NCBI RefSeq assembly: GCF_004354085.1
Contig: NZ_SMSE01000001.1
Span: 1,293,724 to 1,357,723, forward strand
Origin: Seongchinamella unica
GTDB lineage: Bacteria; Pseudomonadota; Gammaproteobacteria; Pseudomonadales; Halieaceae
Reading direction: 5' to 3'
Length of the DNA stretch: 64,000 nucleotides
A model generated the notes under the pieces. It worked only from the letters and a program-made list of their open reading frames with translations. It had not been told where the DNA came from and did not search any database. The translations under genes were made by a program, and so were the position numbers. Position 1 is the stretch's first letter, and every line of letters begins with the position of its first letter. Positions 13,617 to 20,807 of this stretch are shown here, in pieces.

Positions 13617-14432
13617 TCAGAATCGGTAATCCAGAAACAGGGTGGGTCCTTTGAAATCGATGTTGTATTCGTTCTCTCGCCGGGACGATTTTTCCTGGGT
13701 GAGGTCGAGTTTGACGTACTGATAGCCAAGCGTCAGCGACCAGTGATCGCCCATGCCGTAGGCAATACGCGGGTGAATGTAGGTAAAGCCGCCGTCGTAA
13801 TCGCCGTAGTTGGCACTGAGCCAACCGGCGTAGAGCCCCATACCCCACTTGTGGTTCAGCCTGTAGTAGGCCTGCAGTCGAAGGTTGGGCAAGGGTGCCA
13901 GCAGCTCACTGCTGCCGGTGGTCGCCTCCCGCTCGATATTTCCCACAAACGCCCGACCCCTGATGGAGGTTTCCAGGTCGATTGCATGAATGCCTCCCCC
14001 GACCAGGACCTCGGCATTGGCGTTGCTGTAGGCCGAATACATTACGTCCAGGATATAGGTGTCGATACTGAGTTCGGTGTCAACAGAAGCGCCCGCCTGG
14101 AATTCCTTGCCATCGAAGTTAAAGTCTTCTTTCACTGCGCGACGACCGTTCTGGTCAAACTGGTAGGCGAGGCCAACCAGCATCCACCGGGGCTTGAAGC
14201 GCCAACGCCCCTCGAGTGCCCAGCTCAAGTCATCGTGCTTGATGCCCAGGTCATCGAGGTCGACTTTCACCTCCGGCAAGGCGCCCACCGTTGCCCGCAG
14301 ATCCGCATCCACGGTCTGGTAGGCCATGCCAATGCCCACCATATCCCTGACGTGAAAATCCCCCGGCTCTTCCGCTGAAAAGCCCGAGGTGGCAACCAGT
14401 AGCAGCAAAAGCAGCGAAGATCGGAAGTTCAT
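13617..14432 (-). CDS. Outer-membrane beta-barrel protein, function unknown
   Basis: 271 residues with a signal peptide (MNFRSSLLLLLLVATSGFSA). The mature protein alternates polar and apolar residues as in beta strands and ends TLFLDYRF, the C-terminal Phe signature of outer-membrane barrels. The estimated strand number (8-12) and the overall look resemble OmpW/OmpA-like small barrels, but no family is certain. ATG 14432 was chosen because the frame upstream of it encodes no credible sequence. It sits between glmS and the TonB-dependent receptor gene on the same strand, suggesting a two-gene outer-membrane unit. Confidence 0.82.
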   Translation of the reverse strand: MNFRSSLLLLLLVATSGFSAEEPGDFHVRDMVGIGMAYQTVDADLRATVGALPEVKVDLDDLGIKHDDLSWALEGRWRFKPRWMLVGLAYQFDQNGRRAVKEDFNFDGKEFQAGASVDTELSIDTYILDVMYSAYSNANAEVLVGGGIHAIDLETSIRGRAFVGNIEREATTGSSELLAPLPNLRLQAYYRLNHKWGMGLYAGWLSANYGDYDGGFTYIHPRIAYGMGDHWSLTLGYQYVKLDLTQEKSSRRENEYNIDFKGPTLFLDYRF

Positions 14433-14544
14433 AGTGTTTTCCCAGAAGCTTGAATTTCTGCGGGACCCACAACTGCAAAACGTATTGAGCCCACTGAGAG
14501 TTTGATTATGCCGGCTCCCGGGCCCTTTGAATAGTTGTTCTCTG

Positions 14545-16374
14545 CTACTCCACCGTGACCGACTTCGCCAGGTTGCGCGGCTTGTCGACGTCAGTGCCCT
14601 TCTGCACGGCAACGTGGTAGGACAGCAGTTGCAGGGCCACCGTGTAGACGATGGGTTTTACCACCTCCGGACAGTGGGGCATGTTAAGCACCCGAACCCG
14701 GGGTTCACTGGCGAAACCGGCCTGGCGATCGGCGAATACAAACAGCTCGCCACCCCGGGAGCGAACCTCCTCCAGGTTTGACTTCAATTTTTCCAGCAGG
14801 TCATCGCCGGGGGCCACGGCAACCACAGGCATGTTGTTATCCACCAGCGCCAGCGGCCCGTGCTTGAGCTCACCGGCCGGGTAGGCCTCGGCATGGATGT
14901 AGGAGATCTCCTTGAGTTTGAGGGCGCCCTCCATGGCTATCGGGTATTGAATCCCGCGACCCAGGAACAGTGCGTGGTGTTTGGCGATAAAGGCTTCGGA
15001 CAAATCCTCTATGTCGCGATCCAGTTCCAGGGTCTCCTGCACATACTCTGGCAATCGTTGCAGGGCGTTGACCAGATCCGTGGCCCTGTCCTCGCTGAGA
15101 CCGCGGCGCCTGCCCAGGGCAATGGTCAGCATTAACAGCGCTACCAACTGGGTGGTAAACGCTTTGGTGGAGGCTACACCAATCTCGACACCGGCCCGGG
15201 TCAGGAACACCAGATCGCTTTCCCGGACCAGGGAACTGTTGTCCACGTTGGCTATTACCAGTGAGGCGAGGAAATCGCCCGGCGCCGCATCTCGCAGGGC
15301 GGCGAGCGTATCGGCCGTTTCACCCGACTGGGAAATGGTGACCAGCAGGGTGTTGTCATGCTGGACCCGTTTGCGGTAGCGGAACTCCGAAGCCACCTCC
15401 ACCTGGCAGGGAAGCCCCGCCAGTTCCTCCAGCCAGTAACGAGCCACCATGCCGGCGTGGAAACTGGTGCCGCAGGCGACAATCTGTACGGCCTGAACCT
15501 TGTCGAATACTGCTGCAGCGCCTTCCCCGAACAGTTCGTCGGCAACCCGGTGCCGGGCATCGAGGGCCAGGGTTGCGGCGAGGGCGCGGGGCTGCTCGTA
15601 GATTTCCTTGAGCATGTAATGGTCGAACGCGCCCTTGTCAGCGGATTCAACGGCTTCATCGATGCGGATTTTCTCCCTGCGAACCCGCTCGCCCGCCTCG
15701 TTCCAGATACTGATGTCCGCCGGAGTCACCAGCGCCAGGTCTCCCTCCTCCAGATAGATAAAGCGGTCTGTCACCTGGCGCAGTGCCATCGGGTCCGAAG
15801 CCAGGAAATTCTCGCCGATGCCCACCCCGATCACCAGTGGGCTGCCCTGTCGGGCGCCGACGACCTCGTCCGGATGTTCCACATCAATCACTGCCAGCGC
15901 GTAGGCACCCTCCAGCAGCGACACCGTTTCTCGCATGGCATCCACCAGCCCAAGCCCTTGAATCAGATGCGAATGAAGTAAGTGAACAATCACTTCGGTG
16001 TCGGTGGCGGAAACAAACTGATAGCCCTGCTCCTGCAGCCGGGCGCGTAACTGCTGGTGGTTCTCAATAATACCGTTGTGCACCAGGGCGACTCGCGCAC
16101 CGGACGTATGGGGATGGGCATTCACCGCCGACGGCTCGCCATGGGTCGCCCAACGGGTATGGGCGATACCGGTACAGCCGTAATAGGGCTCTAACTGCTG
16201 GGCCCGTTCAAGCTCAGCCACCTTACCCAGCTGCTTGTGCAGCAACAGGTTTCGCTCATTATCCAGCAGGGCCAGGCCGGCGGAATCGTATCCCCGGTAC
16301 TCCAACCGGCGCAATCCCTCCAGCAGAATTTCCGAGACTTCCCGGCGTGCTGCCGCCGCGACGATGCCGCACAT
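14545..16374 (-). CDS. glmS: Glutamine-fructose-6-phosphate aminotransferase (isomerizing)
   Basis: 609 residues, matching the E. coli length. It converts fructose-6-phosphate and glutamine to glucosamine-6-phosphate, the first committed step to UDP-GlcNAc. Cys2, exposed after Met removal, is the glutaminase nucleophile ([10 protein letters not shown]), followed by [12 protein letters not shown]. Two SIS sugar-isomerase domains fill the C-terminal half ([17 protein letters not shown]), and the protein ends KSVTVE as in most GlmS. It starts two bases after glmU, so glmU-glmS form an operon. No glmS ribozyme was seen, as expected for a proteobacterium. Confidence 0.98.
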
Positions 16375-16376
16375 AA

Positions 16377-17747
16377 TCAGCCCTCCCCGTCTTTTTTGCC
16401 GGGACGCTGCCAGCCGGCGATATTGCGCTGCCGGGCGCGGCTGACCGCGAGCTCATTTTCTGCCACCGCCCGGGTCACGGTAGAGCCGGCCCCGACAAAG
16501 CCACCGTCCGCCACTTCCAGTGGCGCCACCAGCGTGCTGTTGGAACCGATAAACACGCCGTCTCCCAAATGGGTCCGGTGTTTGTTAACGCCATCATAGT
16601 TACAGGTAATGGTGCCGGCGCCAACATTCACCCCGTCGCCCATCTCACAATCACCAATGTAGGTCAGGTGATTTACCTTGCTGCCCACGCCAATGCTGGC
16701 TTTCTTGGTTTCCACAAAATTGCCCACACGCGCTTCTTCAGCCAGCACCGTGCCCGGCCGCAGCCGCGCAAAGGGCCCGACACTGGCTCTGGCGCCCACT
16801 ACCGCCTCTTCCAGATGGCTCATGGCATGAATGGTCGCGCCCGCCGCCACCTCCGTGTTGCACAACACGCAGTTGGGACCTACGCGGACACCGTCACCAA
16901 GAGTAACCTCGCCCTCTATCACCACGTTGACGTCAATCCTGACATCCTGGCCACAGCGCAGGCTGCCGCGGACGTCCAGCCGTGACGGATCAGCGAGATA
17001 CACCCCTTCCCGCAACAGGGCATGGGCCTGGCGCAACTGAAACTCGCGCTCCACCTGGCTCAGCTGCAGACGGTCATTGACACCGAGAATTTCCAACTCG
17101 GAACCGGCGAGCTGGGTATGCACCTGACTCCCCTCGGCCACCGCCATGGAGAGCACATCCGGCAGGTAATACTCCCCCTGGCTATTGGCATTGCCAACGG
17201 CCGGCAGGTATTTATTCAGGTCACTGGCGGGCGCAGCCAGCACTCCGCTGTTTATTTCGTTTATTTCCAGCTGGTCAGCGGTTGCATCCTTGTGTTCTAC
17301 AACCTCCAGCAGGGCGCCATCGGCGTCGCGCAGTATTCGGCCGTAACCAGCCGGGCTACCCACCCGGGCGGTCAACAGCGCCGGCCCCTCCCGGGCCTGT
17401 TCAACCAGGGCGCGCAAGGTTTCCGGGCTGAGCAAGGGCACGTCGCCATACAGCACCAGTACGGCGCTTTCCGGTTTTACGGCCGGCAGGGCCTGCAGCA
17501 CAGCGTGGCCTGTGCCCAACTGCTGTTCCTGCCGCACCCAGTTCAGCGCCTGGCCAGCCATGGCTGCCTCGACGGCCCCGGCACCGTGGCCAACCACCAC
17601 ATGGATCGCCGCAGGCGCCAGTTCCCGTGCCGTGTCCACCACATGCTGCAACATGGGCCGCCCGGCGACCGGGTGCAACACTTTGGGAAGGGAAGATTTC
17701 ATGCGGGTGCCCTGCCCCGCAGCGAGGATAATAACTTCGAGATTCAT
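16377..17747 (-). CDS. glmU: Bifunctional GlcNAc-1-P uridyltransferase / GlcN-1-P acetyltransferase
   Basis: 456 residues, the same as E. coli. The N-terminal uridyltransferase domain has [20 protein letters not shown] from residue 7 and VLYGDVPLL. The C-terminal half is a left-handed beta-helix of hexapeptide repeats with the acetyltransferase motif ending [20 protein letters not shown]. It makes UDP-GlcNAc for peptidoglycan and LPS. First gene of the glmU-glmS operon, with start ATG 17747. Upstream, 32-50 bases before the start, lies one copy of a TGTCA-N9-TGACA palindrome shared with the divergent TrmB-type regulator. Confidence 0.98.
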
Positions 17748-17778
17748 GTCCCTGTTCCAGGCTGGCCCCGGGGCCAGA

Positions 17779-17797
17779 TGTCAGTAATTATTTGACA
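17779..17797. promoter_or_regulatory. Putative operator A (TGTCA-N9-TGACA) between glmU and the TrmB-type gene
   Basis: A perfect 5-bp inverted repeat, TGTCA and TGACA, separated by an AT-rich 9-base spacer. It lies 32-50 bases upstream of the glmU start. An identical arrangement recurs 73 bases away at 17852-17870, about seven helical turns. The repetition of both arms and spacer length suggests a dimeric regulator binding both. The TrmB-family protein encoded next door is the obvious candidate, by inference. Confidence 0.6.
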
Positions 17798-17821
17798 ATG
17801 TTTTTCCGATAAGCGCATATT
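17792..17821 (+). promoter_or_regulatory. Candidate sigma-70 promoter for the TrmB-type regulator
   Basis: TTGACA at 17792-17797 is a perfect -35 hexamer. With an 18-base spacer it is followed by CATATT (17816-17821), a fair -10. It would start transcription near 17828, upstream of operator B, and its -35 overlaps operator A. The spacing is acceptable but the -10 is imperfect. Confidence 0.35.
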
Positions 17822-17851
17822 AATCTTACAAATATTCAATACAACGCCTTT

Positions 17852-17870
17852 TGTCACAAATAAATTGACA
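17852..17870. promoter_or_regulatory. Putative operator B (TGTCA-N9-TGACA) at the TrmB-type gene start
   Basis: Second copy of the palindrome, here extended to a 6-bp arm pair TTGTCA/TGACAA (17851-17871). The right arm ends four bases before the ATG at 17875, and no Shine-Dalgarno sequence is visible between. Binding here would block transcription or translation initiation of the regulator, which points to autoregulation. Confidence 0.6.
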
Positions 17871-17874
17871 ACAA

Positions 17875-18615
17875 ATGAAGTTCGATAGCCTGCACCAGCT
17901 CGGCCTTGACGACCGGGAGATCAGTATCTACCGGGCCCTGCTGCGGCTGGGGCCTGCCTCCATTCGCGATGTGGCCGCCGAGTCAGGGGTAAACCGGGGC
18001 AGCACATACGAAACCCTCAAGCAGCTGGCGGGCAAGGGAGTGGTCAACTATTTTCCCCGGGGACGACGTCGGGTATTCCAGGCAGAAGAGCCAGAGCAGC
18101 TATTACAGTTGGGCGAACGACGACAGCAGGCCCTCTCCCAGGCCATGGAACAACTGCGAACCGAGGTGATTCCGGAGCTCAAACAGTCACGGGCCGAATT
18201 CAGCCCGGGTAATGTGCGCTTTTACGAAGGCGATGACGGTGTAGAGCTGGTACTGCGGGACATTCTCGACTCCACCGCTGCCGACCCGGAGCGCGGTTAT
18301 TCGGTCATCTCCACCAAAACCCTGCGGGAGCATCTCTATCGCCCCTTTCCCAACTTCACCCGGCAACGGGAAAGTCGCGGCATCCGGGTGCGGGTCATAG
18401 CCGTTGGTGAGGGGGGTGACGAGGCCGAGTACGCCGAGCGCAAGTGGTTGCCCGCCAGTGATACCTCCGATGCGTCTTACATCGCCATTTACCCGCCCAA
18501 GGTGGCCATGATCACATTGGCAGACAAGGATTATCCGGTCGTGGTCATCATCGATTCAGCTGCTATCGCATCCACCCAGCAAATCCTGTTCGATACCCTG
18601 TGGGGACTGCTGTAA
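17875..18615 (+). CDS. TrmB-family transcriptional regulator
   Basis: 246 residues. The N-terminal winged helix-turn-helix (about residues 8-75: LGLDDREISIYRALLRLGPA, IRDVAAESGVNRGSTYETLK) matches the TrmB family, which in archaea senses sugars and controls sugar transport and metabolism. A coiled-coil linker follows (about 80-115). The C-terminal half (about 120-246) looks like the PLD-like ligand domain of TrmB relatives. It is divergent from glmU-glmS with twin palindromes between, so control of amino-sugar synthesis is the likely role (inference). aguBA follows after 213 bases and is another possible target. Confidence 0.82.
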   Translation: MKFDSLHQLGLDDREISIYRALLRLGPASIRDVAAESGVNRGSTYETLKQLAGKGVVNYFPRGRRRVFQAEEPEQLLQLGERRQQALSQAMEQLRTEVIPELKQSRAEFSPGNVRFYEGDDGVELVLRDILDSTAADPERGYSVISTKTLREHLYRPFPNFTRQRESRGIRVRVIAVGEGGDEAEYAERKWLPASDTSDASYIAIYPPKVAMITLADKDYPVVVIIDSAAIASTQQILFDTLWGLL

Positions 18616-18828
18616 CGACGGGCTAGTTTTTCTCAAGTTTCCTAACCTGTGTTGGTCGAAGAATCGATGGCCACGTCAGCGGCGCCGGTTGCGACCTGCC
18701 GCAAGGCCTGGAAACGGCGCTGGCGATGCTGTCCCGACTATACTAGTAACCCCATGAGGGTAATCCCTGCTGACAGATTTTCTTCTATGCTGGATCCCCC
18801 ACGGTAAGCGCCAGTAAAGGATACAGAC

Positions 18829-19710
18829 ATGAGCCGCATCGTCACTTTCGCCGCGACCCAACTCAGCATCGGCTGGGACATCGAGGCCAACATGGAGAAG
18901 GCTGAAAAAGCCGTGCGCGACGCCCATGCAGCGGGCGCCCAGGTGATACTGCTGCAGGAGCTGTTCGAGGCGCCCTATTTCTGTAAAACACAGCAATACA
19001 GGTACCTTGACCTGGCCAAACCGCTGATCGGCAATCCGCTGATTGATCGTTTCTCAAAACTGGCCGCGGAGCTGGCAGTGGTGCTGCCCATCAGCTACTA
19101 CGAGCGCGATACCAACACTTTCTTCAATTCACTGGTGATGATCGACGCCGACGGCAGCGTGCTGGACAATTACCGCAAGAGTCATATTCCGGATGGCCCG
19201 GGTTACTGCGAGAAGTTTTATTTCACCCCGGGGGACACCGGTTTCAAAGTGTGGAAAACCCGTTACGGTGTATTCGGCGCGGGGATCTGCTGGGACCAGT
19301 GGTTTCCGGAAACCGCCCGTTGTTGTGCGCTGATGGGCGCCGAAGCCATGTTCTATCCAACCGCTATAGGCTCCGAACCCCAGGATCCCAGCCTGGACTC
19401 CAGCGGCCACTGGCAGAGGGTCATGCAGGGGCATTCGGCCGCCAATATCCTCCCGGTGATTGCCTCCAACCGCACCGGGGTCGAACAGGACGATGGCATC
19501 AGTACCACCTTTTACGGATCTTCATTCATCACCAACCACACCGGTGAGAAGATCGCCGAGGCTGGGCGCGACGAGGAGAAGATCCTGGTCGCTTCCATCG
19601 ACCTGGAAGAGTCTGCAAGCTACCGCCGCGCCTGGGGCCTGTTCCGCGACCGCCGCCCGGAACTTTACAGCGCCATTGGTCACAACGCCTGCGGACACAA
19701 CGTCGAATGA
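18829..19710 (+). CDS. aguB: N-carbamoylputrescine amidase
   Basis: 293 residues of the nitrilase superfamily. The catalytic triad is visible as Glu44 (LLQELFEAPYF), Lys117 (YRKSHIPDG) and Cys154 (GAGICWDQWFPE). It hydrolyses N-carbamoylputrescine to putrescine, CO2 and ammonia, the second step of agmatine degradation. AAAGGA sits about eight bases before ATG 18829. Its stop overlaps the aguA start in an ATGA arrangement, so the two are one operon. The 213-base gap upstream holds no gene; TATACT at 18739-18744 is a possible -10. Confidence 0.97.
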   Translation: MSRIVTFAATQLSIGWDIEANMEKAEKAVRDAHAAGAQVILLQELFEAPYFCKTQQYRYLDLAKPLIGNPLIDRFSKLAAELAVVLPISYYERDTNTFFNSLVMIDADGSVLDNYRKSHIPDGPGYCEKFYFTPGDTGFKVWKTRYGVFGAGICWDQWFPETARCCALMGAEAMFYPTAIGSEPQDPSLDSSGHWQRVMQGHSAANILPVIASNRTGVEQDDGISTTFYGSSFITNHTGEKIAEAGRDEEKILVASIDLEESASYRRAWGLFRDRRPELYSAIGHNACGHNVE

Positions 19711-20807
19711 ACGCAGCGCTTGAGTCCACACCGCGGGCGGATGGCTTCCGCATGCCGGGAGAGCACGAACCGCAGCAGGCGGTGCTGATGGCATGGCCGG
19801 AACGCGGCGATAACTGGCGCAATAACGCGGGCCCCGCGCAACGAGCCTTTACCGCGGTGGCTGCAGCGATAGCCGAAGCGACCCCGGTAACGATGCACGC
19901 CAGCGCGAGCCAGCTCGAATTGGCCCGCAGTGTGCTGCCGGCCAATGTCGCGGTCGTGGAACTACCCTGCAACGACAGCTGGATGCGCGACATCGGCCCC
20001 AGTTTTGTGGTCAATGAGGCCGGCGAAATCCGCGGCGTCGACTGGGCGTTCAACGCCTGGGGCGGTGCGGTCAATGGCCTCTATGACGACTGGGCAGACG
20101 ACGATGCACTGGCAAGCCGGGTACTTTCCCTGCGCAACGAGGGGCGCTACCGGGCACCCTTGATCCTGGAGGGCGGTGCTATTCACGTGGACGGTGAAGG
20201 CACCTGCATCACCACCGCCGAATGTCTGTTACACCCCGGGCGTAATCCCGGGCTGGACCAGTCGCAGATCGAGGGCCTGCTCTGCGACTACCTCAACGTG
20301 GACAAGGTCATCTGGCTGCCCCGCGGTTTGTACAATGACGAAACCGACGGCCATGTGGACAATATACTGCACGTGGTAAAACCCGCTGAGGTGGTACTCA
20401 CCTGGTGCGATGACCCGGCGGACCCGGTATACGATATCTGTCGGCAGTGCCTGGCCACCCTGGAAACGGAGAAAGACGCCAGGGGGCGCGAGTTTACCGT
20501 ACACAAGCTACCCATGCCCGGACCGCTGTATATCAGCGAGGAAGAAGCGGCCGGGGTGACGCCTTCGGCGGGCATGGAACGAGCGGCCGGGGAGCGACTG
20601 GCGGCCTCCTACGCCAACTTCCTGATTACCAACCAGCGGGTGGTGTTCCCGCTGCTGGACCCGGCACACGACGATCAGGTGAAGGGCAAACTGACCAGCC
20701 TCTTCCCGGGCCGGGAAATCGTCGGCGTCCCCGGCCGGGAAATCGTCCTGGGCGGCGGCAACATTCACTGCATCACCCAGCAGATCCCGGCCACAGGCGA
20801 GAATTGA
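19707..20807 (+). CDS. aguA: Agmatine deiminase
   Basis: 366 residues of the peptidyl-arginine-deiminase-like guanidino-modifying family. It converts agmatine to N-carbamoylputrescine. The N-terminus RMPGEHEPQQAVLMAWPER, the central NDSWMRDIGPSFVVN, LEGGAIHVDGEGTCI and the C-terminal catalytic Cys355 (GGGNIHCITQQIP) are all present. It is translationally coupled to aguB by a four-base overlap. It converges with the di-heme lipoprotein gene, with 13 bases between the stops. No arginine decarboxylase is nearby, so agmatine comes from elsewhere or from uptake. Confidence 0.97.
   Translation: MNAALESTPRADGFRMPGEHEPQQAVLMAWPERGDNWRNNAGPAQRAFTAVAAAIAEATPVTMHASASQLELARSVLPANVAVVELPCNDSWMRDIGPSFVVNEAGEIRGVDWAFNAWGGAVNGLYDDWADDDALASRVLSLRNEGRYRAPLILEGGAIHVDGEGTCITTAECLLHPGRNPGLDQSQIEGLLCDYLNVDKVIWLPRGLYNDETDGHVDNILHVVKPAEVVLTWCDDPADPVYDICRQCLATLETEKDARGREFTVHKLPMPGPLYISEEEAAGVTPSAGMERAAGERLAASYANFLITNQRVVFPLLDPAHDDQVKGKLTSLFPGREIVGVPGREIVLGGGNIHCITQQIPATGEN

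Follow-up and report, generated by a model that had tools for sequence, protein, structure and literature searches.

GlmS and GlmU feed the synthesis of peptidoglycan and lipopolysaccharide, and their control differs between bacteria. Described controls of glmS include the glmS ribozyme and the DeoR-type regulator GlmR of Pseudomonas, and the DNA-binding protein NagC belongs to the ROK family, which is unrelated to the TrmB type. In E. coli, NagC activates glmUS, binds two sites and is needed for activation of promoter P1, as described in the part of the NagC study drawn on here (PMC2806358). A further control of glmS is exerted by RapZ-GlmY/GlmZ (PMC7073468). Like the circuit proposed below, RapZ-GlmY/GlmZ, the ribozyme and GlmR balance GlcN-6-P and UDP-GlcNAc, but they are RNA-based or belong to other regulator families.

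Proteins with a TrmB-like DNA-binding domain, effector domain or both occur in all three domains of life, the combination of both being commoner in Archaea, and archaeal members of the TrmB type act as activators when their sites precede the promoter and as repressors when the sites follow it, according to the sections of the article used here (PMC4158304). The TrmB-like matches obtained from the open-licence literature of PubMed Central were archaeal, as judged by title and beginning of the abstract, and no TrmB circuit acting on glmU or glmS was found in this literature, in which subscription papers are mostly missing.

The locus described here shares with the archaeal regulators TrmB, TrmBL1, Tgr and VNG1451C the PF01978 domain, palindromic sites and a tie to sugar metabolism, but differs in its bacterial host, its predicted sigma-70-like promoter and amino-sugar synthesis as the putative target, as far as those sections cover them (PMC4158304). 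The conserved site is TGTCA-N9-TGACA, not one of the TrmB motifs named there, TACT-N3-AGTA, TATCAC-N5-GTGATA and TACT-N7-8-GAGTA (PMC4158304). The 246-aa protein also differs from archaeal TrmB in having no PF11495 effector domain. TrmBL2 (PDB 5bpd, 5bqt) is of similar length and comes closest in fold (lowest Foldseek E 6.4e-12, ~16% identity), but it is titled an archaeal chromatin protein and has no known single-operon role. The arrangement resembles that of NagC, a transcription factor on glmUS with one site beside P1 and a second, separate site; unlike here, NagC uses 23-bp Box sites, its second site is found upstream of the distal promoter and not downstream, and it controls a wider nag/man regulon, as given in the part of that study drawn on (PMC2806358).

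Twin palindromes between glmU and a TrmB-type regulator gene

The features of the locus are given below as positions in the window, which is the whole 64-kb stretch of DNA analysed.

14545-16374, minus strand: glmS, glutamine--fructose-6-phosphate transaminase (TIGR01135, 825 bits)
16377-17747, minus strand: glmU, UDP-GlcNAc diphosphorylase / GlcN-1-P acetyltransferase (TIGR01173, 612 bits)
17779-17797, no strand: O2, predicted distal operator, centre predicted at about +23 of the glmU start site
17792-17797, plus strand: candidate -35 of the regulator gene, TTGACA, inside O2 (right arm), from a consensus scan
17816-17821, plus strand: candidate -10 of the regulator gene, CATATT, from a consensus scan, overlapping the glmU -10 on the opposite strand
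17817-17822, minus strand: predicted glmU -10, TAATAT, 16-bp spacer, from gap alignments and promoter register
17839-17844, minus strand: predicted glmU -35, TTGTAT, weak, 7 bp from O1, TTG conserved at this offset
17852-17870, no strand: O1, predicted proximal operator, centre predicted at about -51 of the glmU start site
17875-18615, plus strand: TrmB-type regulator, 246 aa, with a TrmBL2-like C-terminal domain (PF01978, 52.9 bits)

O2 (TGTCAGTAATTATTTGACA, 17779-17797) and O1 (TGTCACAAATAAATTGACA, 17852-17870) were read from the sequence and recovered by pattern search. Both follow the pattern TGTCA-N9-TGACA and their centres are 73 bp apart in the 127-base gap between the divergent glmU and regulator genes. 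O1 ends four bases before the regulator ATG (17875), and 31 bases separate O2 from the glmU start (17747). The first-pass annotation had reported this twin pattern with its positions, spacing and gap length, all of which proved exact on re-reading.

Exact matches to the pattern within the window were limited to O1 and O2, compared to a mean of 0.06 in shuffled versions, none of which reached at least two matches (0/100). The whole 4.19-Mb genome contained four exact sites including O1 and O2, and the reversed-pattern control gave one. Eight of the nine spacer positions are A/T in both gap sites versus 6/9 and 2/9 in the two others, which may thus be chance matches as their spacers are richer in G+C. 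The same was seen in eight genomes of the genus, each of which had two to five exact sites outside the gap (reversed control, one to four); by eye, at least seven A/T spacer positions were present in every gap site and in no other exact site. A global regulon is not favoured, as exact sites elsewhere are about as frequent as the background and contain more G+C in the spacer, and control by the regulator is probably local. The twin pattern with 40-70 bp between the sites was found in one of 369 genomes of the class, that of the window itself, a sample that is little informative as it holds just five members of the order, own genome included.

The regulator matched the TrmB DNA-binding domain PF01978 over residues 6-74 (52.9 bits, cut-off 25.6), and the regulators of loci L105, L106 and L148 also exceeded this cut-off. 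The effector-binding domain PF11495 was not matched anywhere in the protein at E 0.001, the C-terminal 144 aa matched no Pfam family at E up to 1, and the protein is too short for the region carrying the sugar-binding residues G320 and E326 of archaeal TrmB. All families matched at E 0.001 were TrmB or further helix-turn-helix families, with no ROK family of the NagC type. The predicted model (mean pLDDT 88.1, pTM 0.54) consists of a winged helix-turn-helix, a long helix and an alpha/beta C-terminal domain. Of the nine best PDB matches in a Foldseek search, eight were chains of TrmBL2 and one was TrmB 3qph (E 6e-12 to 2.7e-8); the model thus appears to have the overall TrmB/TrmBL2 fold, but with query TM-scores of just 0.32-0.43 and an unsure placement of the domains. 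A profile search of solved structures aligned mostly the helix-turn-helix part, with TrmB 3qph as best match (E 3.7e-5). In an alignment of 43 regulators (without L162, L168 and L174), N40-R41-G42, L48 and K49 in the helix-turn-helix as well as P157-F158-P159, R151, R165, R189 and K190 were invariant, and the basic residues R151, R165, R189 and K190 would suit a phosphorylated ligand.

Conservation of the palindrome and its co-occurrence with the regulator

A genome scan yielded 85 stretches encoding a relative of the regulator, the best 80 of which were compared. At 72 of these 80 loci glmU adjoins the regulator in divergent order, in Halieaceae, Marinobacterium, Amphritea, Neptuniibacter, Bermanella/Thalassolituus-like bacteria and others. 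O1 is kept at 71 of the 72 (67 exact, four with one mismatch), and the single locus missing it (L114) has a spacer of eight and a shifted regulator frame. A spacer of eight was likewise seen at L266 of genome G029 (contig C165), where regulator remnants accompany a decayed operator as the shifted frame does at L114; G029 has two glmU loci and is perhaps a mixed assembly.

Among the remaining loci, the regulator faces a GlmS-type gene in four (L104, L106, L107, L109), with 32-34% identity to the GlmS of the window; L106 scored above the NCBIfam glmS cut-off and L104 just under it, L107 and L109 being outside that scan. All four keep O1, the seven-base interval and TTG as well as a second site 73 bp away, with a mismatch in one arm in L104 and L107. 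Together with L148:1455-3287 they form a deep side branch in which a divergent GlmS-type protein of ~580-610 aa replaces glmU-glmS. The other four loci are L108, which is cut by a contig end, L110, which has no adjoining glmS, and L105 and L111 of Marinomonas.

Co-occurrence was analysed in 97 genomes, namely the own genome, 60 more of the family and 36 of the order, 33 of which gave a regulator match (the own included, and G029 with remnants only). All 28 family genomes with the regulator carry O1, 26 exactly and two with one mismatch. Among the 33 genomes of the family that lack an intact regulator, 30 yielded a glmU gene, one of them unscorable, and no site with up to one mismatch was present within 400 bp upstream of glmU in any of the 29 scorable ones; some of these genomes are incomplete, so that a few regulators may be missed. 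The association has a Fisher p of 7e-17, though the genomes are not independent, and contrasts within genera therefore weigh more. Both states occur in each of three genera, always with site and regulator present or absent together: G022 versus G044 and G056 in g16, G012 and G051 versus G037 in g6, and G004 versus seven others in g1. G004, which belongs to the genus of the window, has no regulator between glmU and aguB and only a TGTCA-N7-TGACA sequence near the place of O2. Outside the family, the site was absent from all 27 regulator-less genomes of the order that were examined (of 32). By eye, four regulator-less loci (L115, L116, L242, L243) show GTCACA-like half-sites ~20 bases before the glmU -35, which are perhaps an operator remnant or the site of another regulator.

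Since synteny alone could keep the site by an accident of neighbourhood, loci with an unlinked regulator gene provide a test. The genus Marinomonas, to which L105 (Marinomonas sp. MED121) belongs, has the regulator in 47 of 48 genomes and glmU in 47 of 48, and neither glmU nor glmS occurs within ~1.5 kb of the regulator in the 30 loci examined. An exact palindrome was detected upstream of glmU in 47/47 (30/30 and 17/17, one at -242). Upstream of the Marinomonas regulator no site with up to one mismatch was present in the 30 examined of 47, two of which have a sequence with two mismatches. The palindrome therefore goes with glmU. In G065, from another family, the regulator is encoded elsewhere and glmU has an exact site 82 bp in front of it; the 4.5 kb surrounding the regulator contain no site, and the preceding gene is flavin reductase-like by eye. 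In G094, twin exact sites 92 bp apart are found at a GlmS paralogue (glmS by NCBIfam) with the regulator beside it, and the site is absent at the true glmU. Searching the glmU-regulator gaps of relatives for the 19-mer, as the first-pass annotation had suggested, thus revealed a conserved palindrome that tracks the regulator, and its idea that the TrmB-type protein controls glmU gains strong comparative support from conserved gaps, tracking and retention at unlinked genes.

Predicted promoters of glmU and of the regulator gene

Reading towards glmU (or glmS), O1 is followed by seven bases, a -35-like TTG and a -10-like element. For comparison, 125 promoters including the window's own and 47 of Marinomonas (without L105, L111 and L114) were reduced to 121 by merging identical ones; as this set was selected by the palindrome with up to one mismatch, counts of the arms are not evidence, whereas TTG was no criterion. 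TTG stands exactly 7 bp past O1 in 120 of the 121 promoters, and also in 29/29 genomes (L005-L033) whose species partly overlap the set. The lone exception is L110, which has no glmS beside the regulator. Outside the set, G065 (L269) and G094 (L148) have exact palindromes, but GGC and TAT at the seven-base place. The geometry is thus not universal, which slightly lowered our confidence in the overall model presented below.

In a best-hexamer scan, the spacer between -35 and -10 was 16 in Oceanospirillaceae-type (34/35), Thalassolituus-like (6/6) and GlmS-only (5/6) promoters and 17 in 43/46 promoters of Marinomonas, while the 28 promoters of Halieaceae had 16 (14), 14 (nine), 17 (four) or 13 (one). 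The distance between O1 and TTG stays constant though the position of the -10 varies, suggesting that the site is phased to the -35, as expected for a polymerase contact. A consensus promoter scan of the window's gap did not find the glmU promoter. If the usual sigma-70 geometry is assumed, the centres of O1 and O2 would lie near -51 and +23 of the predicted glmU start, itself placed near 17810 (minus strand). A TTGTAA/T-N16-TANNAT sequence within 200 bp of glmU was retained in 11 of 31 regulator-less family loci, indicating that the core promoter of glmU can function in the absence of the protein.

With up to one mismatch allowed and at 72-74 bp from O1, O2 is present in 21/27 Halieaceae, 6/6 Thalassolituus-like and 5/6 GlmS-only loci, but in only one of 38 other glmU-linked loci having O1 and in none of 46 distinct Marinomonas promoters. 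In a tree of 43 regulators, Halieaceae and Thalassolituus-like sequences group together (100/99), and the GlmS-only group and G065 lie across the midpoint; by this layout the twin site is either old and was lost in Oceanospirillaceae, or was gained twice. The first-pass annotation had proposed two operators, possibly with DNA looping. The preserved 72-74 bp spacing wherever both sites exist agrees with this and makes looping possible there, but as a general mechanism it is rejected because O2 is missing from 37 of the 38 other linked loci and all Marinomonas promoters.

In Halieaceae the inner arm of O2 possibly serves as the -35 element from which the regulator gene is transcribed. A consensus scan of 17700-17920 gave the candidate promoter using this arm, with a start predicted near 17828 (plus strand), as the single promoter-like match (mean 0.3 in shuffles). 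TTGACA is found in the inner arm in 26 of 28 Halieaceae gaps, including loci with a degenerate outer arm (L045, L051, L052, L059), and a -10-like hexamer starting with CAT follows at 17-18 bases in 25 of 28. Conservation of this hexamer alone proves nothing, as it overlaps the glmU -10, which could explain it. No such clear regulator-promoter hexamer was found in the two other groups with twin sites. As the Marinomonas regulator is without a site and an own promoter is not recognised outside Halieaceae, autoregulation is not general.

The regulator start abuts O1 (17871-17875) with no visible Shine-Dalgarno sequence, and likewise in most relatives. A promoter of the regulator inside O1 giving a leaderless start was considered, and by eye no convincing -10 was seen. 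At L054, L055 and L058 the regulator ATG lies farther off behind a purine-rich leader, and the distance from O1 to the TTG of glmU is unchanged.

Proposed control of glmUS and competing explanations

In all probability the neighbouring TrmB-type protein uses O1 and O2 as its operators and acts as a dedicated local regulator of glmU-glmS. The palindromes might instead bind another, perhaps global, regulator, with the TrmB-type gene as a mere neighbour. The arms are short and two to five further exact copies occur per genome in the eight genomes of the genus, as this would require; however, the presence of the site tracks the TrmB-type gene (28/28 versus 0/29), the link holds where the genes are unlinked (Marinomonas, 47/47; G065), and the helix-turn-helix residues N40, R41, G42, L48 and K49 are invariant in the 43 regulators, so that we regard this as very improbable. 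Even harder to believe is that the inverted repeats function at the RNA level, as leader hairpins of the regulator or glmU transcript. The position of O1 directly at a regulator ATG lacking a visible Shine-Dalgarno sequence would suit such hairpins, but it is the sequence of the arms that is conserved, without compensatory changes in the 121 promoters (a set chosen by the arms), O1 lies upstream of the predicted glmU start and thus outside its transcript, and Marinomonas keeps the site at glmU without the regulator gene. No Rfam family matched in 14000-20000 of the window.

With somewhat more belief than doubt, we favour overall a model that joins these operators to positive control of glmUS and, in Halieaceae, to autorepression. 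A protein on O1, 7 bp upstream of the glmU -35, would most probably aid RNA polymerase. The divergent promoter of the regulator gene in Halieaceae would be closed by this same binding: O2 covers its putative -35, its leader contains O1, and its candidate -10 shares bases with the glmU -10 on the opposite strand. The bound protein would thereby divert polymerase from the regulator gene to glmUS and steady the level of the regulator, with GlcN-6-P, UDP-GlcNAc or another amino-sugar metabolite probably setting the protein's affinity for DNA. The archaeal rule of activation from upstream and repression from downstream sites would fit O1 and O2, if it can be transferred to bacterial polymerase.

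The opposite sign is rather doubtful, yet a serious competitor: the protein would be a repressor of glmUS, O1 hiding the UP element or holding polymerase and O1 and O2 closing a 73-bp loop, in an end-product feedback by amino sugars. O1 presumably covers the usual place of an UP element, and its occupancy could therefore repress. Moreover, O1 and O2 flank the predicted promoter at 72-74 bp (~seven turns) in the Halieaceae, Thalassolituus-like and GlmS-only groups, the predicted glmU start precedes O2, and a similar core promoter persists in the 11 of 31 regulator-less family loci. Against repression, O2 is absent from most other linked loci and from Marinomonas, a lone site near -51 is an unusual place for a repressor, and occlusion needs no exact 7-bp phasing to the -35. 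Activation is favoured because O1 precedes the -35, keeps its phase with it to the base in almost every case, and suffices alone in two large groups. Tentatively, and as a wider proposal, this bacterial TrmB branch could represent a dedicated end-product-sensing switch for cell-wall sugars that acts on divergent promoters overlapping each other, recruits polymerase at the glmU -35 and hides its own -35, some lineages using a complex on two operators 73 bp apart and others just one operator.

In these marine bacteria, such a circuit would be a protein-based equivalent of NagC, RapZ-GlmZ and the glmS ribozyme. The TrmB family, known from archaeal sugar uptake, would gain a clear bacterial role with a predicted operator described in 121 distinct promoters, and a function is suggested for the regulator of Marinomonas, Marinobacterium, Amphritea, Neptuniibacter and Halieaceae. 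Culturable strains make it possible to test which ligand it binds and whether it activates or represses, and the 7-bp phasing offers a clean case for how a TrmB-type protein may contact bacterial RNA polymerase.

The genes aguB and aguA (agmatine to putrescine; 18829-20807) lie 3' of the regulator, an arrangement seen in part of the relatives only. They were considered as its main target and rejected on this ground, as glmU adjoins in 72 of the 80 loci. On the other side of the locus, an ORF at 13617-14612 overlaps the end of glmS; by eye, its translation probably begins further inside, at a stretch resembling a signal peptide.
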